Part shown: piece by piece, positions 13,095-36,777 of the stretch
Numbering within the stretch: position 1 is the stretch's first letter
Layout: each line of letters opens with the position of its first letter
Source of the DNA: Bacillota bacterium
GTDB lineage: Bacteria > Bacillota > Clostridia > UBA1381 > UMGS1253
Assembly: GCA_022706785.1 (NCBI GenBank)
Contig: JAKJBW010000019.1
Span: 1 to 37,071, forward strand
Direction: 5' to 3'
Length of the DNA stretch: 37,071 nucleotides
Program-made: the position numbers and the translations under genes
The notes under the pieces: model-generated
Seen by the model: only the letters and a program-made list of their open reading frames with translations
Databases searched by the model: none
What the model was told of the DNA's origin: nothing

Positions 13095-15170
13095 CTATTC
13101 CCCATCGCTTTGGTTTTCCTCGGTATCACCGACACCATCATTTCCCTGCGGTGTCTGCTCCGACGGCTGTTCATCGGCAGCCGGCTCGGTCTCCGCTGCC
13201 GGTTGCTCCCCTTGCGCCTCAGCCGAAATCTCTTCCATAATCTGCTGGGATTCCGCCTGATTTTCCTCAACAGGCAAAAGCGCCCGTTTGCTTAAACTGA
13301 TACGCTTGTTTTCCCAATTAATCTCTGTTATCTTTGCCTCAATTTCCTCTCCGATAGAAAGCTCATCCGAGGGCTTGCCAACACGCTTATTGGCGATCTG
13401 AGAAATATGGATAAGCCCGTCCACTCCCGGCATCAGCTCAACAAACGCGCCAAAAGGCATGAAGCGAACCACCTTACACTTGACAATATCCCCCACGTTA
13501 AACTTTTCCTGCGCCATTGCCCAAGGGTTGTCCTCTGCCTTTTTATAGCCAAGGGATATTTTCTTGGTTTCGGCATCAATATCTTTAATATAAACTTCCA
13601 CAGTATCGCCTACGCTCAGCACTTCCGAAGGATGTTTTATCCGGCTCCATGACAGCTCACTGATATGGACAAGCCCGTCAACGCCGCCAATATCCACAAA
13701 CGTGCCAAACGGCATAATGGATTTCACCGTGCCGGTATACTTCCTGCCGACCTCGGCCTCTGCCCAAAACTTTTCGCTTATCGCCTTCTTCTGATCGGAA
13801 AGCACCGACTTTACCGAACCCGTCACTCTTTTGCGGCGGGGGTTAATCTCCGTGATCCTGAGCTCTACGGTATTGTTCAAAAATACCGTCAGGTCTTCAG
13901 TATAACGGTCGGAGGCTTGCGACGCGGGCACAAATACGCGTGTGCCTTCCACCAGCACAATCATTCCGCCTCCCACAACCTGTATGACCTTGCCCGACAG
14001 AACCGCCTTGTTCTCAACGGCTTCCTCTATCTTTTTCCAGCCCGCGATGTAGTCGAGCTTTTTCTTGGAAAGCAGCGTTTTGCCTTCCGCATCGTTGACG
14101 CCCACAACAAAGACCTGAATTTCGTCACCGGGCTTTACAATATTAGAAGGCTTCACTTCCGGATCATCCGACAGCTCACTGGCCGGAATGATACCGTCCG
14201 ACTTGAAGCCCAGATCAACAATGACTTCGGTAGGCCTGACTTCTACAACGATACCGTTGACCACGTCTCCTGTATTTAAAGTTTTAAAAGACTGCTCCAT
14301 AGCCTCCTCAAAACTCATCTCCTGCACACCATGGCTATTGATATTTTCTTCCATAGTCCTGACAACCTCCTTGATACTACCTGACGGCGTGGATGCTCCC
14401 GCAGTAATACCTATTTTTTTATTTTTGTAATTTATATTTTGAGGGATATCCTCAAAATTTTCGATGTGAAAGGTTTGCGGGCAGTTTTTTGCACATATAT
14501 CAAACAGCTTTTTGGTATTTGAGCTTCCCTTCCCGCCAACTACAAACATAACGTCGACCTTTTTGGATATGTCTTCCGCCTCGGCCTGTCTGATTTTGGT
14601 CGACTTACATATTGTATCAAAAACTATGACCTCTTGGCAATTGTTTTTTACAATTTTAACAAGATTGTCAAAATTATTTTTGTTCGCCGTTGTCTGCGCA
14701 ACCATGCAGACCTTATCCAGCACAAGGCTTTGAGCCTCCTGCGGCGCAGAAATCACATGAGCGCCAGCCTGGCACCACCCTTCAATTCCGATCACTTCAG
14801 GATGGGTTTTGTCGCCTACAATGACGATATCGTAGTCGCAGGCGCTGTGTTGCGCAACAATATTATGTATTTTTGCAACGTAAGGACAGGTAAGATCGAC
14901 AACCTCCCCCGCCCGCTTCTGCGCCCTGCTCAGCACCTCTCTGCCCACACCGTGGGCACGGATCACCAAAACGGTGCCGGAAGCGCAGTCACAAACATCC
15001 TCCACAGTGTCAACTCCGCGCTTTTTTAAGTCGTCCGTCACATAGCGGTTATGGATGAGTTCCCCTAAGATCACTATCCCGTCCCTGCTGTCCGACAGCG
15101 CATAGACGCTGTCAACAGCTCTTTTTACGCCAAAACAGAAGCCCGCGCTTTGTACCACAGTTATTTCCAT
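13095..15170 (-). CDS. ispH: IspH (HMBPP reductase) fused to four S1 RNA-binding domains
   Basis: Residues 1-280 are 4-hydroxy-3-methylbut-2-enyl diphosphate reductase, the last step of the MEP isoprenoid pathway. The [4Fe-4S] cysteines are Cys12 (GFCFGVKRA), Cys95 (LTCPYVAK) and Cys188 (DTICKSTKIRQ); substrate residues His41, His73, His123 and Glu125 are present. Residues 300-370, 386-455, 474-543 and 557-628 are four S1/OB RNA-binding repeats of ribosomal protein S1 type; the third and fourth carry the clear FGTFVDIGGVDGLVHISELS pattern. An acidic Gln/Glu tail follows. This fusion is known in Clostridia. It is the third gene of cmk-plsC-ispH, 66 bp after plsC. The two halves may act separately after translation or couple isoprenoid synthesis to translation; that is not decided here. 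Confidence 0.93.
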   Translation of the reverse strand: MEITVVQSAGFCFGVKRAVDSVYALSDSRDGIVILGELIHNRYVTDDLKKRGVDTVEDVCDCASGTVLVIRAHGVGREVLSRAQKRAGEVVDLTCPYVAKIHNIVAQHSACDYDIVIVGDKTHPEVIGIEGWCQAGAHVISAPQEAQSLVLDKVCMVAQTTANKNNFDNLVKIVKNNCQEVIVFDTICKSTKIRQAEAEDISKKVDVMFVVGGKGSSNTKKLFDICAKNCPQTFHIENFEDIPQNINYKNKKIGITAGASTPSGSIKEVVRTMEENINSHGVQEMSFEEAMEQSFKTLNTGDVVNGIVVEVRPTEVIVDLGFKSDGIIPASELSDDPEVKPSNIVKPGDEIQVFVVGVNDAEGKTLLSKKKLDYIAGWKKIEEAVENKAVLSGKVIQVVGGGMIVLVEGTRVFVPASQASDRYTEDLTVFLNNTVELRITEINPRRKRVTGSVKSVLSDQKKAISEKFWAEAEVGRKYTGTVKSIMPFGTFVDIGGVDGLVHISELSWSRIKHPSEVLSVGDTVEVYIKDIDAETKKISLGYKKAEDNPWAMAQEKFNVGDIVKCKVVRFMPFGAFVELMPGVDGLIHISQIANKRVGKPSDELSIGEEIEAKITEINWENKRISLSKRALLPVEENQAESQQIMEEISAEAQGEQPAAETEPAADEQPSEQTPQGNDGVGDTEENQSDGE

Positions 15171-28089: not shown

Positions 28090-30471
28090 TTACCTTAGCT
28101 TAACACCTGCGCTGCACTCAAGGCTTTCGAGGATTTTGTCCATCACCTTGCCGATCTCCTGATCGGTCAGCGTGCGGTCAGCGGCACGCAAAGTCACCGA
28201 ATACGCCATACTCTTTTTGCCCTGCGGAATCTGCGGTCCTTTATATACATCAAACAGCTTTATACTGTCTAAGATTTTACCTGCCGCCTTCTCAATGATC
28301 TGCGCAATATCCCCCGCCAATACGGCATCGTCTGCCAGTAGGGCAAGGTCACGCGAAACAGCCGGATATTTCGGCAGCTTTTTGTAGGTTTTTGCGTTAT
28401 CGGCGGCCCCGCTTAGCGCATCAAACGAAAGCTCGGCCAGATAGCACGCCTCTGATATGCCGTAGGCATCACACACATCCGGATGCGCCTGCCCGACATA
28501 TCCTGCGCGATCTGAACCTATCGTTATCATAGCGCAGCGTCCCGGATGGTATGCGCTCTGATCTGCGGCAGGCGTAAATGAATATACCTTTACACCAATG
28601 CTGTCAAACAGCTCTTCAACCATACCCTTGATATCATAGAAGTCAACCCCGCCATACATACCGAGCGTAACAATGTTTTTTTCGTCGGGCAAGGTCTGCT
28701 CTGGCTGCGGCAAATACACCCTGCCTATTTCAAACAGCTTCACCGCCTCATTGCGCTGACTGTAGTTTCGCTCAAGCGCCTCCATCATGGATGCCAGTGT
28801 GGTTGTGCGCATAATGGAATTTTCTTCGCCAAGCGGATTTTGAATGCTTACCACATTACGCTTCGGCGAATCGGCAGGAAAACGCAGTTTGTCAAAAACG
28901 GCAGGGCTGGTAAACGTATAGGTCAGGATTTCATAAAGCCCCTGTGCGGCCATGGCGGCCTTCACTTTGTCTTCCAGCTTCTGTCCGGCGTTTTTGCCGC
29001 CCTTGGTGATTTCTCCGGCCATAAGGGTGGATTTGATATTGTTGTACCCATAGATACGTACGATCTCCTCAGCAAGGTCTGCCTCGCTTTCCACATCTGC
29101 ACGATATGACGGCACGCTCACCGTCATGGCGGCCTCATCTACGCCAAAGCCCAAAGCATTAAGCGTTTTTATCATAAACGCCGTATCAATCTGCGCGCCC
29201 AGAAAAGCGTTGATCTTTTCCGGGCGAAGCGTCAGACTGCGCGCAGGCGGCAGCTTGCCACACACATCAATCATACCGCCCACCACTTCGCCTATCCCTA
29301 ATTCCTCAACAAGCTGGCATGCCCGGTTGACGGCTGCCTCTGTCAGAGAAGGGTCGATGCCCTTTTCATATTTTGATGACGCTTCGGTACGAAGCCCCAG
29401 CTTTTTGGCAGTTATCCTGACCGACGCCCCATCGAAGTTGGCGCTCTCAAACAGTATTACAGCCGTGTCCGGCTTTACCTCGGAATTCTGCGCCCCCATC
29501 ACGCCTGCTACTGCCACGGCCTTTTCCCCGTCCGCAATAACAAGCATAGAGGCATCCAGCTTTCTTTGCTGGTCGTCTAAGGTGGTGATCATCTCCCCGT
29601 CCCGCGCCCGGCGCACGATAATATGCGCCCCCGCTACATCACGCATATCAAACGCGTGCATGGGCTGGCCGTACTCCAGCAGGACATAATTGGTGATATC
29701 CACAATATTGTTGATGGCGCGGATCCCGCTTGCCTGCAGTCTGCGCACAAGCCACGCGGGCGACGGCGCAATCTTTACATTTTTGATCATTCTGGCACAG
29801 TAACGCGGACAATATGCCTGATCTAGCACATCCACCCTTGCCAGATCAGCTACGTTTTCTTTATTTCCCTGCGCCGCAGGCACAGGCAGCGAAAACGGAC
29901 GTCCAAAGGTCACCGCCGCCTCCCGCGCAAGCCCGATAACGCTCTGGCAATCGGGCCGGTTTGACGTGATTTCAAACTCCGCAACATTGTCGTTAAGCCC
30001 AAATACCTCTTTGATGTCAACACCCACAGGCGTGCCACCGTCTAAAATCAGAATACCATATTCAGGCTCATAGCCAAGCTCCGCCGCGGTTATGCCAAGC
30101 TCCTCATGGGAGCATAGCATGCCCTCTGACACAACGCCGCGCAGCTTGCCCTTTTTAATGGACATGCCGCCTGCCAGCTTTGCACCGTGCGTTGCCACAG
30201 GTACGATCTGCCCTTCCCCCACATTAGTAGCCCCTGTGACGATCTGGAGCATTTGGCCGCCGATATCCAGCATACACACCTGGAGCGAATCGGCATTCTC
30301 GTGCTTCTCAACAGACAGAATCTTTCCTGTAACCACATTTTCTATTTCAGCGCCCAGGCTCTCCACTCCCTCAACCATAGAGCCCGACATGGTCATTGCG
30401 TCGGCAAATTCCTTTGGCGGTATATCAGATAGATCAACATAATCGTTAAACCAGCTCATTGCTATTTTCAC
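28090..30471 (-). CDS. pheT: Phenylalanyl-tRNA synthetase beta subunit
   Basis: The 793-aa protein is the usual length for bacterial PheT. N-terminal tRNA-binding OB domain (residues ~40-150: GKILSVEKHENADSLQVCMLDIG), B3/B4 editing domain, B5 domain with NRPDC-type region, and a C-terminal ferredoxin-fold anticodon-binding domain (KLPKYPAVSRDLALLADD to GKVMDKILESLECSAGVKLR) are all present. It forms the alpha2-beta2 enzyme with PheS, 31 bp upstream. Start: GTG at 30471, 7 bases after GGGAGGG. Confidence 0.97.
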   Translation of the reverse strand: MKIAMSWFNDYVDLSDIPPKEFADAMTMSGSMVEGVESLGAEIENVVTGKILSVEKHENADSLQVCMLDIGGQMLQIVTGATNVGEGQIVPVATHGAKLAGGMSIKKGKLRGVVSEGMLCSHEELGITAAELGYEPEYGILILDGGTPVGVDIKEVFGLNDNVAEFEITSNRPDCQSVIGLAREAAVTFGRPFSLPVPAAQGNKENVADLARVDVLDQAYCPRYCARMIKNVKIAPSPAWLVRRLQASGIRAINNIVDITNYVLLEYGQPMHAFDMRDVAGAHIIVRRARDGEMITTLDDQQRKLDASMLVIADGEKAVAVAGVMGAQNSEVKPDTAVILFESANFDGASVRITAKKLGLRTEASSKYEKGIDPSLTEAAVNRACQLVEELGIGEVVGGMIDVCGKLPPARSLTLRPEKINAFLGAQIDTAFMIKTLNALGFGVDEAAMTVSVPSYRADVESEADLAEEIVRIYGYNNIKSTLMAGEITKGGKNAGQKLEDKVKAAMAAQGLYEILTYTFTSPAVFDKLRFPADSPKRNVVSIQNPLGEENSIMRTTTLASMMEALERNYSQRNEAVKLFEIGRVYLPQPEQTLPDEKNIVTLGMYGGVDFYDIKGMVEELFDSIGVKVYSFTPAADQSAYHPGRCAMITIGSDRAGYVGQAHPDVCDAYGISEACYLAELSFDALSGAADNAKTYKKLPKYPAVSRDLALLADDAVLAGDIAQIIEKAAGKILDSIKLFDVYKGPQIPQGKKSMAYSVTLRAADRTLTDQEIGKVMDKILESLECSAGVKLR

Positions 30472-30502: not shown

Positions 30503-31522
30503 TCAGAACTGTTTTAAGAATCTAACGTCGTTTTCAAAGAACAGACGCAAATCATCAATATCGTAGCGGCGCATAGTAACACGCTCAAGCCCCAGCCCGA
30601 ACGCAAAACCACTGTACACCTCCGGATCAATGCCGCAGCCGGCAAGCACCTTTGGATGTACCATGCCCGCACCCAAAATTTCGATCCAGCCCTCGCCTTT
30701 ACACACGCGGCAGCCTTCTCCGCCGCACACAAAGCAGGACACATCCATCTCCGCGCTTGGCTCGGTGAACGGGAAGTGGTGCGGGCGAAACCTTACCTTC
30801 ACATCGGCGCCATACAAGGCATGCGCAAACACCTCAAGCGTTCCCTTCAGGTCGCCCATGGTAATGCCTTTGTCCACCACAAGCCCCTCAATCTGATGGA
30901 ACACCGGCGAATGCGTTGCGTCAACGGCATCGCTGCGGTAAACCATGCCGGGGGCGATAATGCGGATCGGCGGCTTTTGCTTTTCCATAACGCGCACCTG
31001 AACAGGCGACGTCTGGGTGCGCAGCACAACGTTTTCATCAATATAGAAGGTGTCCTGCGTATCGCGCGCGGGATGATTCTTAGGAATATTTAACGCCTCA
31101 AAATTGTAGTAGTCGAGCTCCACATCAGGCCCCTGCGCAATGCTAAAGCCCATGCCGATAAAAATATCCTTTACGTCATCGAGCACCTGTGTGAGCGGAT
31201 GCAGTTTGCCCGCTTTGTGCCGCCTGCCCGGCATGGTCACGTCAAGCGTTTCGCCGGCCAGCTGCGCCTTGCGCGCCTGTCCGGACAGCTGCGCGTCCTT
31301 TTGTTCAATGGCAGCTTCAATAGCCGCTCTGGCCTGATTGGCAAGTGCGCCCGCCTGCGGCCTCTCCTCCGGCGGCAAAGCGCCCATACCCCGCAAAACC
31401 GAAGTGAGCGCACCCTTTTTACCTAAATATTTAATCCTGATTTCATCAAGCCCTTGTAAATCTGTAGCACTTTCCAACTCCTGCATTGACTGCGCTTTAA
31501 TCTGTTCCAACTGCTCCTTCAT
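30503..31522 (-). CDS. pheS: Phenylalanyl-tRNA synthetase alpha subunit
   Basis: The 339-aa protein contains the N-terminal coiled coil (residues 1-90) and the class II catalytic core: [19 protein letters not shown], motif 2 [29 protein letters not shown], and motif 3 [21 protein letters not shown] zinc-type [12 protein letters not shown] insertion lies near residue 245; such an insertion occurs in many PheS proteins. The gene is controlled by the T-box leader upstream, and a second terminator-like hairpin from repeat copy A lies between them. Start: ATG at 31522, with AGGAG 8 bases upstream. Confidence 0.97.
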
Positions 31523-31560
31523 TTCTCTAGCTCCTTTATAGCAAATTTGCTTGTTAAACT

Positions 31561-31582
31561 AAAAAAGCGGGCAGCGCCCGCT
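31561..31582 (-). terminator. Terminator-like hairpin between the T-box and pheS
   Basis: AGCGGGC-GCT-GCCCGCT with a T6 run on the minus strand (31566-31561), just 39 bp before the pheS ATG. The upstream GCCCGC at 31596-31591 can pair with the same GCGGGC arm, a possible alternative fold. It belongs to dispersed repeat copy A. Confidence 0.65.
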
Positions 31583-31663
31583 GGCACTACGCGGGCAGTC
31601 AGCGGTAATTCTGATCCTGTGCCCGGCAACCTATTTTGGCGTAATTTTCTATCACATAAAAAA
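31561..31663 (-). repeat. Dispersed repeat family 1, copy A
   Basis: Matches copy B at 1823-1927 (37 of 44 in the first block, about 28 of 30 in the last) and the core of copy C at 5181-5255. A CGGGCA/TGCCCG pairing spans the variable centre and is kept in copy B through a G-U pair. It starts in the T tract of the T-box terminator. Confidence 0.75.
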
Positions 31664-31945
31664 GTGCCGCGTCCGCCATGGGACGAAGCACAAACACTCC
31701 GCGTTACCACCCAAATTCCCGCATAAAATCCATGCGGGCACTTGTTTGCAAATGACGGCTGCAACCGTCACGACCTACTGAAACTTGAGCGCACCCAAGC
31801 ACATGTTCAGCCGTGCAACTCCAAAGCGAAATTTCAGCGGCAGCCGTTTCTAAGGGGCTTTCAGCCAATGGCGCCCTCTCTCTGAAAGGCGTATCTGCAG
31901 CCTACTAAACTTTTTCATCGTCTTTTTTCCTTCATTTTTTATTTT
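31658..31945 (-). promoter_or_regulatory. T-box riboswitch (tRNA-Phe), pheST leader
   Basis: The T-box sequence GGGTGGTAACGCG lies at 31712-31700 (minus). Stem I features are present: AGTAGG near the start, the AGAGAGAGGGCG and TTGGCTGAAAGCC region, and the specifier loop AAATTTCGCTTTGGAGT with Phe codon TTC at 31830-31828. The terminator CGTCC/GGACG within GTGC/GCAC, followed by T6, is at 31691-31658. Uncharged tRNA-Phe would favour the antiterminator and raise pheST transcription. Confidence 0.9.
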
Positions 31946-31950
31946 GCTTT

Positions 31951-31979
31951 AGTATAACACGCTTTCATATATTTTACAA
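31951..31979 (-). promoter_or_regulatory. pheST/T-box promoter
   Basis: -35 TTGTAA (31979-31974), 17-bp spacer, -10 TATACT (31956-31951), just before the T-box stem I. Confidence 0.75.
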
Positions 31980-32018
31980 GCATTTTTAATCCAATATTTT
32001 CTGGCTTACACATTTCGC

Positions 32019-32438
32019 CTATTTGAAGACACCCTCTAAGCTGTTTACTCTTTTTTTCAAATCCTCTACCTTTTCCTCAATAGCCCTAGCCGTTTTAACA
32101 AACGCGCTTTTATCTTTCCCCGACGGGTCTTCAAGACCCCAATCCTCTCTATGCTTGCAAGGAATAAAAGGGCAATTCACACTGCACCCCATAGTTACAA
32201 CAATATCCACAGCAGGGATATCTGAAATCAATTTCGATTTTTGCAAAGCGTTCATATCTACACCATAAAGCGCCTTAATAACTGAAACAGCATCCTGATT
32301 TATCTGCGGCCTGGTTTCAGTCCCGGCTGAATATGCTTCAAAGCTATCTGATGCGATTAGCTTTGAAATGGCCTCTGCCATTTGAGATCTGCATGAATTA
32401 TGAACACAAACAAATACTACTTTTATTTTCTCTGCCAT
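32019..32438 (-). CDS. arsC: Thioredoxin-dependent arsenate reductase ArsC (LMW phosphatase fold)
   Basis: The 139-aa protein has the CX5R phosphatase loop CVHNSCRS (Cys11, Arg17) plus the ArsC-specific redox cysteines in TMGCSVNCPFIPCKHREDWGLEDP (Cys85 and Cys89; Cys94 is extra), and the Asp104-Pro acid. It reduces As(V) to As(III) with thioredoxin. It is the fourth gene of the arsR-hgcA-hgcB-arsC run, 61 bp after hgcB, with AGAGG 7 bases before the ATG. No arsenite efflux gene (arsB, acr3 or arsP) is in the window, so detoxification here is incomplete unless one lies elsewhere. Confidence 0.88.
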   Translation of the reverse strand: MAEKIKVVFVCVHNSCRSQMAEAISKLIASDSFEAYSAGTETRPQINQDAVSVIKALYGVDMNALQKSKLISDIPAVDIVVTMGCSVNCPFIPCKHREDWGLEDPSGKDKSAFVKTARAIEEKVEDLKKRVNSLEGVFK

Positions 32439-32499
32439 ATTTGAACCTCTTTCTAAAAAAACAATGTTATCTGATTACCATTTTAGCGGGAGAATAGTA

Positions 32500-32802
32500 T
32501 TAGCAGCATCCTTTGCTATTACTTCCGTCTGAGCAATCACAGCTTGGTTCACTCCCTGTGAGCCAACCCTTGATTATCGCATATGCGCAGCCCACGCCCG
32601 GCTTTACTTCTAACGCGTTAAACGGACAGTTCTTTGCGCAAGCACCACACTCCATGCAGCCATCCTTATCAATTATTTCCGCTTTTTTATTTTGCATATC
32701 AAATACATTATGCGGACAAACTTCCATGCACTTTCCGCAGCCGGTGCATTTATCTGAATCCAGCTTGAGTGTTGCAACATTTTTCAAATAACGATTCTTC
32801 AT
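32500..32802 (-). CDS. hgcB: HgcB, 4Fe-4S ferredoxin of the mercury methylation pair
   Basis: The 100-aa protein carries two CX2CX2CX3C clusters (Cys19/22/25/29 and Cys49/52/55/59), the latter in the HgcB-typical CMECGACAKNCP. It then has the GVGCAYAI motif (Cys72) and a C-terminal Cys pair (Cys99, Cys100); Cys88 and Cys90 add a second pair. The cluster-plus-Cys plus terminal-Cys-Cys build distinguishes HgcB from ordinary ferredoxins. HgcB is thought to reduce the HgcA cobalamin and to pass Hg(II) to it. The ATG at 32802 has GGGAGGG 6 bases upstream; the ATG at 32808 abuts that site. It follows hgcA by 12 bp. Confidence 0.92.
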   Translation of the reverse strand: MKNRYLKNVATLKLDSDKCTGCGKCMEVCPHNVFDMQNKKAEIIDKDGCMECGACAKNCPFNALEVKPGVGCAYAIIKGWLTGSEPSCDCSDGSNSKGCC

Positions 32803-32814
32803 AAACATCCCTCC

Positions 32815-33987
32815 CTAAACCCTGAAAAGGCTGGTCACCAAAAGCAGGATAGAGCCTAACCCTATAAATATTGCAATTAAAGGCACTGCCACTTTTATTT
32901 CCTTTAAAACACCTGACAGCGATGTATAAGTTGATGAACCGGTAAAATTCATTGCATAGAATGCAGATATTGAAGGTAAAACCAGTAAATAGCCCAAGCC
33001 TCTGATTAAACTGAAAGGAGATAATATTGTCCATCCATTTAATACATTTACACAGACCGCCCATATCAAACCCAAAAGACATCCTTTCCAAGAAAACGCC
33101 CGGCCCGGAATCCAAGGAAGCAATACCGGAGTTAATACGCAGCCTGTTATTAATGCCCCTAGATAAGCATACAAGTCGGTTGCTCCAAAAGGCCTGGCAG
33201 CAATAAGGTTTAACAAAAAGAGCACGCTAAAAACAATTAAAGACACCTTGAATGTGCCTACTAATTCTATCGGCGTCAGCACTAAACGATCATATACATT
33301 AAATTTTACAATTCGCATTTCATCTGTTGCCTGCATTCCACGATTCATAAATTCTTTTATATCTTTAGCCCTAACCGTCCCGTAAATCACCTTGAAACCA
33401 GTCTGCTTTGTTACCTCATGAGCACTCACTCCCGGCGCCCCTAATTGCGGCAATATCAACGTCTTGTGTGTCACAATCTCATTAAGTCTTGTTTTGCCGA
33501 TACGATTTATAAGCTCTTTTGTTCCAAATGTGCCTTTTCCGGCTGCGCACCATACATTTATTCCTTTTGTATCAAGCACTAAAATCCATGCATTTAGACC
33601 TGATAGTTCTTTTCTCAATGCATCAAAAGTCAATTTATAGTTAGCCGTCACAAGTATGTGCGATTCTTTGTCGGGATTCCCAACGGCATATACGCCGGGG
33701 TTAATTTTATAGTCCATCCTGTTAATGCCCCATCTTGCTTTCCATGCCCCCAGTGTATCTGAAAAAACCAATTGCGTTGCAATCCGCGGAACTAATCCTG
33801 CATCTGTTTTTATATCCCCAATTATCCAGCGGTCTTTTTTATCATATTGAGTAATGGGAACCGGCGAACATTTTTGAGTACCGCTACAGCAGCACTTTTC
33901 TTCTTGAACAGATGATAAAAATTCCGGCTGTTTGGATGCTTTCGTTTTAGGCCTGATTTTCACAGCCTTAACCTTGGAATCAGCCAT
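32815..33987 (-). CDS. hgcA: HgcA, corrinoid-dependent mercury methyltransferase
   Basis: A 390-aa protein with the HgcA build. The cytosolic corrinoid domain has the cap-helix motif NVWCAAGKG (residues 144-152; 33558-33532), in which Cys147 is the expected lower cobalt ligand. The C-terminal third has five membrane segments, about residues 249-267, 273-292, 300-317, 329-346 and 366-385. This combination is specific to HgcA and separates it from the acetyl-CoA-pathway corrinoid protein CdhD/AcsC. It methylates Hg(II) to methylmercury. The N-terminus has an uncommon cysteine patch (KCCCSGTQKC). Start: ATG at 33987 is used here; a GTG at 34017 with GGGGG 8 bases upstream is a real alternative. 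It overlaps or closely follows arsR. Confidence 0.94.
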   Translation of the reverse strand: MADSKVKAVKIRPKTKASKQPEFLSSVQEEKCCCSGTQKCSPVPITQYDKKDRWIIGDIKTDAGLVPRIATQLVFSDTLGAWKARWGINRMDYKINPGVYAVGNPDKESHILVTANYKLTFDALRKELSGLNAWILVLDTKGINVWCAAGKGTFGTKELINRIGKTRLNEIVTHKTLILPQLGAPGVSAHEVTKQTGFKVIYGTVRAKDIKEFMNRGMQATDEMRIVKFNVYDRLVLTPIELVGTFKVSLIVFSVLFLLNLIAARPFGATDLYAYLGALITGCVLTPVLLPWIPGRAFSWKGCLLGLIWAVCVNVLNGWTILSPFSLIRGLGYLLVLPSISAFYAMNFTGSSTYTSLSGVLKEIKVAVPLIAIFIGLGSILLLVTSLFRV

Positions 33988-34006
33988 ATCAGAGCCGCAA
34001 TGCCCC

Positions 34007-34393
34007 TTATTCCTCACACTTTTCACCCCCAGCCAGTAGATATCCACAGCTTGAAATTTCATTCTTCATGGAAGAAATTTTCTGTAGCATTGATTTATCA
34101 TTGTTAAATACTTCATCGCCGTCCAGCCAATCTGACAGAAGAAAAAGAATGCTCAACAAATGCTTTGTATATTCATTTTCATCTATCTTATAGTGAATCC
34201 ATTTTCCTTCCCTTCTGGCTTTTATTATTCTTGATTGCTTAAGAATAGCCAGCTGACGTGATACCCTCGGCTGCGACATATCAAGCGCGGCATAGATCTG
34301 ACATACACAAAGCTCGTTGTTCAACAGCAGCAATAAAATACGCAAGCGTGTTTTATCTGAAAGAATGCCAAATAAATTTAATACCTCGACCAA
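34007..34393 (-). CDS. arsR: ArsR-family metalloid-sensing repressor
   Basis: The 128-aa winged-helix protein has the ArsR signature ELCVCQI (Cys29, Cys31), the As(III)-binding site of classic ArsR, followed by the recognition helix SQPRVSRQLAILKQSRII and wing RREGKWIHYKI. Cys116 and Cys126 in the C-terminal tail (SSCGYLLAGGEKC) may add ligands. It is the first gene of the hgcAB operon; the inverted repeat over the -10 is its likely operator. Start: TTG at 34393, with AGGGGG 8 bases upstream. It likely releases DNA on binding As(III) or possibly another soft metal; mercury sensing has not been shown. Confidence 0.9.
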   Translation of the reverse strand: MVEVLNLFGILSDKTRLRILLLLLNNELCVCQIYAALDMSQPRVSRQLAILKQSRIIKARREGKWIHYKIDENEYTKHLLSILFLLSDWLDGDEVFNNDKSMLQKISSMKNEISSCGYLLAGGEKCEE

Positions 34394-34424
34394 TTGTAAT
34401 ACCCCCTCTTTGCATTAACATATG

Positions 34425-34440
34425 CATATATAATTATATG
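34425..34440. promoter_or_regulatory. Candidate ArsR operator
   Basis: Inverted repeat CATATA-TAAT-TATATG covering the arsR -10. An AT-rich dyad at this position is typical of ArsR/SmtB operators. Confidence 0.6.
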
Positions 34441-34461
34441 ATTATTTAATTCAAATGTAAA
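34433..34461 (-). promoter_or_regulatory. Promoter of arsR-hgcA-hgcB-arsC
   Basis: -35 TTTACA (34461-34456), 17-bp spacer, -10 TATAAT (34438-34433), 40 bp before the TTG start. Confidence 0.75.
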
Positions 34462-34493
34462 CAGTTTTTTCTTGATTTTTTTTGCTTTTCCAC

Positions 34494-34522
34494 TTTAAAC
34501 AAGCGCAAATACATGCTATACT
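34494..34522 (+). promoter_or_regulatory. Candidate promoter of the UroD-family gene
   Basis: -35 TTTAAA (34494-34499), 17-bp spacer, -10 TATACT (34517-34522), 42 bp before the ATG. It is divergent from the arsR promoter, with 32 bp between the two -35 boxes. Confidence 0.6.
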
Positions 34523-34564
34523 ATTTACGCCAGTATAATTTAAATGAACTAAGGGGCGTATAAC

Positions 34565-35722
34565 ATGAGCGATCACCGTAAAACAGAAACCATGACCTCA
34601 AGGGAAAGGGTCCTGCGCAGCATCAACCATCTCCCTGTGGACCGTATGCCGATTGATCTGGGATGCCATTACTCTACCGGCATATCGGCATTCGCCTATC
34701 ATAACCTGCGCAAATATCTGGGACTGTCTACAGACAATATCCAAATTCCCGATATGGTTCAGTTTTTGGCCCGTGTGGATGAGGATATATTAAAACGCTT
34801 TCACTGCGACTGTATCCTGTTGAATCCCGGCTGGAAAAAAACTTCCCGCTGGAATCCCCGGGGTGAATATACGTTTTCGATTCCGTTCAATGCCAATCCT
34901 TCCCTGCGTGACGACGGAAGCTGGCTGATCCAAAAGGACGATGCGGTTATGAGGATGCCAAATAACGGATTTTTCTTTGACGGCGGCTGGCTCTCCTTTA
35001 GTGATGAAACCGCCGAAGAATCGCTTGCCAGATACGCGAAAGAGGCTGAGCGGATATATAAGGATACGGACTATTTTACCATGTACATAGGCTATCACGC
35101 TTATTTCTGCTGTGACGACATAGACTGGCAGTGCAGGATGCTGACCGATCCGGATGAGATTATAGCAGGAAACGAACGCATCCATGACAGGCAGATGAAC
35201 GCTGTCGGCAAGGTGATAGACACCATGGGCAATCACATACAGGCCATTGCCATTAATTCCGATCTGGGTTCTCAAGCCGGGCCGCTTTGCAGACCTGCGG
35301 TATGGGAAAAATTGTGTGCGCCGTATGTGAAAAAATTCTGTGATTTTGTGCATAGCAACAGTGATCTAAAGATTTTCCTGCACTCCTGCGGGGCAATACA
35401 TGACTTTATTCCTTTGCTGATTGAATGCGGGGTCGATATCCTTAATCCGGTGCAAATTACAGCCGATAACATGAATCCTACGGAATTGAAAAATAAGTTT
35501 GGCGATAAAATCACCTTTTGGGGAGGCGGCTGTAATACACAAAGTATCCTTGGCGTGGGAACACCGGACGATGTGTCCGCAAATGTACGCGAACTCGTCA
35601 GCATTTTCAAGCCAGGCGGCGGATTTGTGTTTAATCCGGTGCATAATATTATGGGGGATGTCAAACCCGAAAATATTGTAGCCATGTTTGACACAGCCTA
35701 TGAAGAAAGCTGGTCGCTATAA
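34565..35722 (+). CDS. Uroporphyrinogen decarboxylase (UroD)-family protein, possible methyltransferase
   Basis: The 385-aa protein is a UroD-fold TIM barrel. Family features are the N-terminal TSRERVLRSINHLPVDRMPIDLG, the FLHSCGAIHDFIPLLIECGVDILNPVQ strand with a His-X-Cys pair, and FVFNPVHNIMGDVKPENIVAMFDTAYE at the end. This is the arrangement of MtaA/MtbA/CmuA-like proteins, which move methyl groups between corrinoids and thiols, more than of true UroD; the heme-specific residues are not evident. It starts 9 bases after AAGGGG and is divergent from arsR-hgcAB. Substrate and role are unknown, and the corrinoid link to HgcA is only contextual. Confidence 0.8.
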   Translation: MSDHRKTETMTSRERVLRSINHLPVDRMPIDLGCHYSTGISAFAYHNLRKYLGLSTDNIQIPDMVQFLARVDEDILKRFHCDCILLNPGWKKTSRWNPRGEYTFSIPFNANPSLRDDGSWLIQKDDAVMRMPNNGFFFDGGWLSFSDETAEESLARYAKEAERIYKDTDYFTMYIGYHAYFCCDDIDWQCRMLTDPDEIIAGNERIHDRQMNAVGKVIDTMGNHIQAIAINSDLGSQAGPLCRPAVWEKLCAPYVKKFCDFVHSNSDLKIFLHSCGAIHDFIPLLIECGVDILNPVQITADNMNPTELKNKFGDKITFWGGGCNTQSILGVGTPDDVSANVRELVSIFKPGGGFVFNPVHNIMGDVKPENIVAMFDTAYEESWSL

Positions 35723-35753
35723 GGTTATGTGTATTGCAGAACAATAATAATTA

Positions 35754-35791
35754 ACGGCTCGCCGCGTTATGCGCCCGAGCCGTCTTTTTTT
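35754..35791 (+). terminator. Terminator of the UroD-family gene, overlapping the tyrA 3' end
   Basis: Stem ACGGCTCG (35754-35761) / CGAGCCGT (35776-35783) with T7 at 35785-35791. The loop holds the tyrA stop and the 3' arm is tyrA coding sequence. Confidence 0.85.
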
Positions 35792-36618
35792 GCGCTCTCT
35801 TCTTTTAGGAGCCTGCCCTGTCTGAGCAACTTTTTAAGCTCCGCTTCATTGCCCGACGCTAGCGCCTCGTTGTATTCGCATAAATGCGCGATGATGGTTT
35901 TTATCTCACTTTGCAAAGCACGCCGGTTAAGCATAAACAGGTCGCTCCACATATCTTCATTCAGTCTTGCAACGCGCGTCATATCTAAAAAGCTGCCTGC
36001 CGAAAAGCCTGTGTGCTTCTGCAGGGACGGACTTTTGATATAAGCGCTTGACACCACATGCGCAAGCTGGGAAGTATAGGCGATGATTTGGTCATGTTCA
36101 CGCGGTGTGGTGACAACAATCCTGTTAAACTTTAGTGACCGCGCAAGGTCTTTGACGCATTCTGTTTTTTCGGCCGGTGTGTCTGGCAATGGCGTGATAA
36201 TAAAGCTTGCGCCGTCAAACAAAGTGTCGGAAGCATAGTCAAAGCCCGAGAATTCACGTCCCGCCATAGGATGCGTGCCGATAAACGTAACCTCTGTCTG
36301 GGCAAGGACACCTGTAACGCTGTCCACAATAGCTTCTTTTACACCGCAAACATCAACAACCGTACTGCCGCGCCTGAAGTTTTCAGCGTTTTTGACAATA
36401 AAATCAATCGTCTGCCTCGGGTGCAAACACACAGCCGTAAGATCAGCCCGGCTTAATTCCCGTTCTTCTATCGCCGCATCAATTGCTCCGCTGTCAAGCG
36501 CGCGACGGATAACGCCTTTGTCAATGTCAAATCCCAGGCAGGTATGCCGCGTATGTTTTTTGATTGCTTTACACAGAGAGCCGCCAATCAAACCCAAACC
36601 GACAACCGCTATCTTCAT
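35767..36618 (-). CDS. tyrA: Prephenate dehydrogenase
   Basis: The 283-aa protein oxidatively decarboxylates prephenate to 4-hydroxyphenylpyruvate in tyrosine synthesis. It begins with the NAD motif MKIAVVGLGLIGGSL and the second-strand acidic FDID, giving NAD(H) preference. GTHPMAGREFSGFDYAS is the TyrA substrate motif and TSQLAHVVSSAYI the helical dimer domain signature. No chorismate mutase or ACT domain is attached, so it is the monofunctional form. Start: ATG at 36618 with GGAGT 9 bases upstream. No other aromatic pathway gene adjoins in the window. Confidence 0.92.
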   Translation of the reverse strand: MKIAVVGLGLIGGSLCKAIKKHTRHTCLGFDIDKGVIRRALDSGAIDAAIEERELSRADLTAVCLHPRQTIDFIVKNAENFRRGSTVVDVCGVKEAIVDSVTGVLAQTEVTFIGTHPMAGREFSGFDYASDTLFDGASFIITPLPDTPAEKTECVKDLARSLKFNRIVVTTPREHDQIIAYTSQLAHVVSSAYIKSPSLQKHTGFSAGSFLDMTRVARLNEDMWSDLFMLNRRALQSEIKTIIAHLCEYNEALASGNEAELKKLLRQGRLLKEESAKKDGSGA

Positions 36619-36777
36619 GACCTGTCAACTCCAATGCCTTAAGTTTTTTGTATACCAAAATAATCTGCCGATAAAATTTTATAATATTAAAAATCTATCA
36701 TAAGGCGAAACAAAACACAAGACTTTTTTCAAAAAACCGCAGCAGCTTTTGCTTGTCTCTGCACAGGCCCATTTTTA

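Follow-up and report, generated by a model that had tools for sequence, protein, structure and literature searches.

The 37,071-bp stretch of DNA analysed here (the window) carries an intact hgcA-hgcB mercury-methylation gene pair in an arsR-hgcA-hgcB-arsC-like run. We consider very probable an overall reading in which this run is one operon predicted to be derepressed by arsenite, HgcA likely receives its methyl group from SAM and would pass it to Hg(II), and the pair was likely acquired horizontally. With such a pair, toxic methylmercury would be a likely product of the bacterium. The genes and their order, the families to which they belong, a promoter-operator core shared with other loci and a sporadic distribution of the pair are observed directly, and are described below. 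The window is the entire contig of a draft genome (G000) of 2.03 Mb in 52 contigs, which is 90.68% complete and 1.7% contaminated.

Gene order and boundaries of the locus

The genes of the run are transcribed from the minus strand, which for hgcA and hgcB corrects the initial annotation, in the order arsR (34007..34393; an ArsR/SmtB-family regulator with a TTG start), hgcA (32815..34017; a membrane corrinoid protein whose probable GTG start overlaps the end of arsR), hgcB (32500..32802; a dicluster ferredoxin) and an arsC-like gene (32019..32438; low-molecular-weight phosphatase family, PF01451 63.7 bits). The run stops short of a T-box leader (31676..31927, minus strand; RF00230, 121.1 bits against a gathering threshold of 93) that precedes pheS (30503..31522) and pheT (28090..30471), both also on the minus strand, and this leader sets the downstream limit of the hgcAB run. 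Next to the four genes, no gene for an efflux pump was seen. The divergent URO-D family gene (34565-35722, plus strand) is weakly similar to MtaA/CmuA methyltransferases (TIGR01463, 33.7 against 235.4 bits; PF01208, 63.1 bits); it was considered as a dedicated hgcAB partner and rejected because a phmmer search (E 1e-3) of the 80 other hgcA loci yielded no homologue. Farther along the window (13095-15170, minus strand), LytB (IspH) is fused to four S1 domains in a single protein of 691 residues.

Identity of HgcA and HgcB

The window HgcA scores 495.1 bits (E 8.5e-149) with the NCBIfam equivalog HgcA_corrinoid (NF040863, cut-off 275) and HgcB 142.5 bits with HgcB_ferredoxin (NF040864, cut-off 99), E-values that exclude a chance match; both proteins thus exceed the cut-offs of the profile HMMs by which the initial annotation had proposed to check its identification of a hgcAB pair. 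Curated profiles, sequence motifs, tree and predicted fold all bear out that identification, to which arsR, the arsC-like gene, the upstream start of hgcA and the sporadic distribution are additions. The cap-helix motif reads INVWCAAGKG, containing the NVWCAAGKG first noted, and its cysteine (C147 in the 390-residue form) is invariant across 36 aligned sequences. An AlphaFold model built from 36 sequences and of moderate quality (mean pLDDT 65) has five long C-terminal helices (residues 246-262, 269-288, 298-316, 324-353 and 357-389), in agreement with the five C-terminal membrane segments first described, whereas hydropathy alone delimits four hydrophobic regions (235-264, 272-293, 298-322 and 357-384). 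Cap-helix variants occur at other loci, with NVWCAAGAG in L041, NVWCAASKG in L043 and NVWCAAGEG in L057 instead of NVWCAAGK.

When the predicted HgcA fold is compared with the PDB by Foldseek, the HgcAB integrative model 9a0b ranks first (40% identity, E 3.7e-19) and CFeSP next, and by sequence alone the PDB matches comprise four CFeSP large-subunit sequences only. The CFeSP large subunit (AcsC/CdhE) shares the corrinoid-binding domain fold with HgcA (2h9a, 27% identity), but the fold match covers the corrinoid domain only and not the membrane helices. A CFeSP identity (CODH/ACS gamma-subunit, 77.2 bits against a cut-off of 306) was rejected, as was an HgcAB-like fusion (198.4 bits against 285), and these scores speak against the placement with CdhD-type proteins outside the HgcA clade that had been named in advance as the outcome contradicting the assignment. 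In a quick tree, built without a CdhD-type outgroup, the window HgcA falls within a Firmicutes HgcA clade that includes Pelotomaculum, Pseudobacteroides and Clostridium kluyveri; the row closest to it is P0004 (84%), the fork uniting it with P0004, P0006 and P0009 receives 85% SH-aLRT, and the smallest starred set that holds it numbers 19 rows. The wider clade contains metagenomic relatives, including two rows named as Deltaproteobacteria and Ignavibacteriales MAGs.

HgcB begins 12 bp after the hgcA stop, at ATG 32802, and contains two CxxCxxCxxxCP motifs (CTGCGKCMEVCP and CMECGACAKNCP), GVGCAYAI and a terminal GCC, so that the dicluster ferredoxin with a terminal Cys-Cys directly after hgcA, as originally read, holds by motifs, score and spacing. 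The importance of these HgcB cysteines has been reported (PMC7305189). Of the 75 named loci for which 400 bp of downstream sequence are available, 69 have a HgcB match directly after hgcA. HgcAB of Pseudodesulfovibrio mercurii ND132, which according to PMC7305189 is the protein of the 9a0b model, resembles the window pair in having a cap-helix cysteine in the corrinoid domain, a five-helix membrane domain and a dicluster ferredoxin with an extra cysteine and a terminal Cys-Cys (PMC7305189), and likewise has an ArsR-type regulator of hgcAB (PMC10349881); the window differs from ND132 in its arsC-like gene after hgcB and in its host lineage.

The start of hgcA had been placed at ATG 33987, but GTG 34017, ten codons upstream and within the end of arsR, is the most likely start, because the ten residues that it adds match, by eye, the N-terminus of P0004 (MESKSCCGSN against VRNKGHCGSD in the window) and because GGGGGTG, also noted by eye, precedes the GTG. 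P0004, the closest homologue among the matches listed, has 401 residues and starts MESKSCCGSNTEDSK, and the window protein read from the GTG begins VRNKGHCGSDMADSK. A hgcA start inside the last arsR codons suggests translational coupling of the two genes.

Read from this start, HgcA has a cysteine-rich N-terminal tail of about 63 residues (33829..34017, minus strand; VRNKGHCGSD...EEKCCCSGTQKCSP...), in which the first motif is His-Cys and not Cys-Cys. The tail is unstructured in the model (pLDDT <50 over residues 1-43 of the 390-residue form) and makes up most of the surplus of the window HgcA (400 residues) over the 9a0b chain (329 residues, possibly trimmed). Among 119 homologues drawn from the best 120 of 8000 scored, and hence describing close relatives only, CC occurs within the N-terminal extension in 104, CCC in 67, and CC beyond residue 80 in none; at the named loci, 55 of the 78 with an extension of at least 10 residues have a vicinal cysteine pair in the tail. 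The structural and enzymological papers discuss the cysteines of the cap helix and of HgcB, and no discussion of a cysteine-rich HgcA tail was seen in the parts of them consulted (PMC7305189, PMC11588087). We predict a metal-thiol role for this tail.

ArsR, its predicted operator and the arsC-like gene

The ArsR protein matches PF01022 (60.6 bits) and NCBIfam HTH_metalloreg (90.4 bits against a cut-off of 55) and has both the winged helix and the metal-site cysteines, in the form of an ELCVC motif, which in this family corresponds to an As(III) site. With the window ArsR as phmmer query, such a regulator was found directly upstream of hgcA (<200 bp, same strand) at 34 of the 73 named loci with 400 bp upstream (80 named hgcA loci in all) and within 800 bp at 38 of 73, both counts being lower bounds. 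Among the 37 adjacent ArsR proteins, the window's included, 35 carry a CxC where the metal site lies, and in 24 the sequence is ELCxC.

A sigma-70 type promoter of the arsR-hgcAB run is predicted at 34433..34461 (minus strand; TTTACA-17-TATAAT, 11 of 12 consensus positions) and is the best of 11 in 31500-36700; as shuffled sequences give a mean of 10.9, only its score and place speak for it. Overlapping its -10 box is a palindrome, CATATAATTATATATGCATATGTTAATGC (34412..34440, minus strand), which is predicted to be the ArsR operator. The 13-bp core of this element, CATATAATYATAT, spans the TATAAT in the window and is present at a single place in the window and in each of L003, L004 and L005, with no further occurrence in the 81 loci (828 kb), the simulated chance per 400-bp region of like composition being 0.00015-0.0008; the ArsR proteins of these four loci score 158-274 bits with the window ArsR as query. 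Other ArsR types carry other upstream motifs. Words of the form TCRATNTGA occur 47 times in 4,689 bp of sequence preceding arsR and 35 times in 395,615 bp outside these regions, and are found at 23 of 37 loci; around the promoters of other ArsR types (for example L011, L017 and L026) they are about a hundredfold denser than elsewhere in the loci. Both motifs were picked by eye after the sequences had been seen, so their figures describe and do not prove.

Two groups of loci each resemble the window in part. Bacillota bin149 (L003), Clostridiaceae BRH_c20a (L004) and Pseudobacteroides cellulosolvens (L005), with HgcA 65-68% identical to the window's, share its ArsR type (158-195 bits) and operator core, but phmmer found no arsC-like gene at these loci. 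Acetivibrio mesophilus (L011, L017), L015, L019 and L042 do have, like the window, an arsR ahead of the pair and an arsC-like gene immediately behind hgcB (in L019, whose hgcA ORF is truncated, 461 bp lie between this ORF and the end of arsR); however, L011, L015, L017 and L042 have another ArsR type, with CGELCACMILEKF or CGEQCACMILEKF, and L011, L017 and L042 the other promoter motif, TCRATNTGA. The two hgcA copies of A. mesophilus share a contig, at a distance of about 107 kb, and each is preceded by arsR and followed by an arsC-like gene. An arsC-like gene directly follows hgcB at 5 of 68 other loci with enough sequence, in addition to the window. Its product in the window is possibly a thioredoxin-type arsenate reductase, and the curated arsenate-reductase models that match it all score below their cut-offs (82.2 against 215, 71.4 against 157.6 and 70.2 against 174.3 bits).

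The neighbourhood of ars genes and hgcAB is already known. McDaniel and co-workers (2020; PMC7438021) describe ars genes near hgcAB, including arsR, arsC, acr3 and arsM, and Zhang and co-workers (2023; PMC10349881) find that 14 of 31 confirmed methylators have arsR upstream of hgcA, cite experimental proof that ArsR controls hgcAB in ND132, and report an arsenic response of hgcAB in that strain. Against a general linkage, blue-hole MAGs studied in 2025 had arsR genes that were not close to hgcAB (PMC12953829). The window locus is a further member of this set, to which it adds an operator candidate and lineage detail.

Host lineage and origin of hgcAB

PheT from the window is 71% identical to its counterpart in G001, 70% in G002 and 69 and 75% (two pieces) in G003, the other genomes of the family, against at most 63% elsewhere in the order in matches of at least 200 residues (a 34-residue piece in G069 reaches 68%); pheS is 77-79% identical to the same three genomes. 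A PheT match is present in 86 of 95 genomes of the order, and G000 has a single copy. These matches assign the contig to a poorly sampled clostridial family, with pheS and pheT as its native anchor genes. Of 47 hgcA-carrying genomes of the named loci, 44 have a PheT match, the highest being in Acetivibrio mesophilus (55%), and a MAG protein named 'Ruminococcaceae bacterium' is 70% identical, both consistent with the clostridial host originally proposed; the further description of this host as fermentative is addressed in part, by a CFeSP gene that was not found and an FTHFS that is present. Beside pheS, G002 and G003 have instead a gene of the methionine gamma-lyase family, the piece in G003 sharing 80% identity with its G002 counterpart, and in G001 the contig ends beside pheS. 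Elsewhere in the order, L140 and L141 (G010 and G012) have a gene of 173 residues with a MDKIMIVGFSGAGKST-like start between pheS and pheT.

HgcA exceeds the profile cut-off in one of the four genomes of the family and one of the 95 of the order, in both cases the window's own, and none of the other 94 order genomes has a hgcA over the cut-off; eight of them have frames of 512-547 residues that reach only 17.8-21.3 bits. Because only one genome of the order has hgcAB while the contig is native, and because two relatives in the family have another gene beside pheS, the pair likely arrived by horizontal transfer, probably together with its arsR as one unit, and this is the simplest reading of the distribution. 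Wide horizontal transfer of hgcAB has been inferred before (PMC7438021).

Vertical inheritance, with loss of hgcAB in the other sampled members of the order, would also leave a single carrier, and the generally patchy distribution of hgcAB (PMC7438021) and a family sample of four genomes, the other three 81-88% complete, lend it some room. We nevertheless regard it as unlikely, given that 0 of 94 other order genomes are over the HgcA cut-off, that the operator core of arsR is common to three loci of other lineages, and that HgcA is closer than PheT to the same organisms: 65% against 54% for Pseudobacteroides, 62-71% against 40% for Desulfosporosinus, and 72% for Pelotomaculum, whose genome has no PheT match. 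A mis-binned contig carrying the hgcAB of another organism is conceivable for a draft of 52 contigs with 1.7% contamination, but it is very improbable and was rejected on the native pheT and pheS, since both genes point to the same family (for PheT, identities of 71, 70 and 69-75% within it and of no more than 63% elsewhere in the order over 200 residues or more) and no second pheT copy exists in G000.

Methyl supply

The draft genome encodes FTHFS, S-adenosylmethionine synthetase, a cobalamin riboswitch and one B12-binding corrinoid protein beside a RACo-type activator. Within this 90.68%-complete draft we detected no second PF03599 protein (CFeSP), no MTHFR and no PF00809 protein (MetH, AcsE and FolP families); PF00809 is present in 82 of the 95 order genomes. 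In G001, G002 and G003, metF (PF02219), an activation-domain-like gene (PF02965, which exceeds its cut-off in two of these genomes) and metH (PF02574, PF00809 and B12-binding) form one run, so one assembly gap could explain their absence from the draft. The absent methyl-THF genes fit SAM as the methyl donor, but may reflect such a gap. If the absence is real, SAM would be the known methyl donor left, as in the enzymology of purified ND132 HgcAB, whose corrinoid is methylated by SAM and not by methyl-THF (PMC11588087). Methylator lineages without the CODH catalytic subunit have been described (PMC7438021).

A supply from 5-methyl-THF would require a MetH- or AcsE-like enzyme encoded in the missing 9% of the genome. 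The metF beside metH in each of the three relatives, the FTHFS of the window's own genome and older labelling work, as cited in PMC11588087, argue for it; the MetH/AcsE-type and MTHFR genes not found in the draft and the use of SAM, and not of methyl-THF, by purified ND132 HgcAB (PMC11588087) argue against, and on balance we think it improbable.

Two other regions of the draft are related to corrinoids. Contig 16 (L144, 1026-5926) encodes a DUF1638 protein, a RACo-type activator, a PocR-AraC regulator and a small B12-binding protein, a separate corrinoid system, and contig 43 (L147, 2590-10766) has a cobalamin riboswitch before genes for SLH and DUF4430 proteins, perhaps for surface corrinoid capture.

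Proposed mechanism and native role

We infer the methylation chemistry from published work on the HgcAB family. The arsR-hgcA-hgcB-arsC-like run is predicted to be one operon derepressed by arsenite, with ArsR repressing at the palindrome over the -10 box. HgcA likely moves the methyl group of SAM onto its Cys-ligated corrinoid and would hand it on to Hg(II), and HgcB likely provides electrons and carrier thiols. Some observations weigh against this reading, in that an ArsR adjoins hgcA at only about half of the loci, and the arsC-like protein is under every matched arsenate-reductase cut-off and follows hgcB in only 5 of 68 other loci.

The native job of the arsR-hgcAB module might instead be an arsenic response, with mercury as an accidental substrate. 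The ELCVC-type ArsR upstream and the arsC-like gene downstream favour this, as do the regulation of hgcAB by ArsR and its response to arsenic in ND132 (PMC10349881), but only about half of the loci have arsR directly upstream, and the literature consulted, in part, contained no arsenic chemistry by HgcAB; we consider such a role doubtful. Equally tentative is a broader proposal, in which the locus would be a mobile, arsenic-switched and SAM-fed methyltransferase module in a cell without a methyl-THF branch, the vicinal-cysteine tail of HgcA would act as a soft-metal docking arm working with the terminal Cys-Cys of HgcB, and the module may natively act on a thiolate of arsenic or of some other soft element and not on mercury.

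Significance

The hgcAB pair marks organisms able to make methylmercury, and a lone carrier among 95 genomes of its order would be missed by surveys based on taxonomy only. If a closed genome proves truly to be without metF and metH, this organism would put to a natural test the 2024 finding that HgcAB is fed by SAM. The operator core and the cysteine-rich tail of HgcA offer two cheap tests of why hgcAB so often adjoins arsenic genes, a question that bears on the native function of the family.
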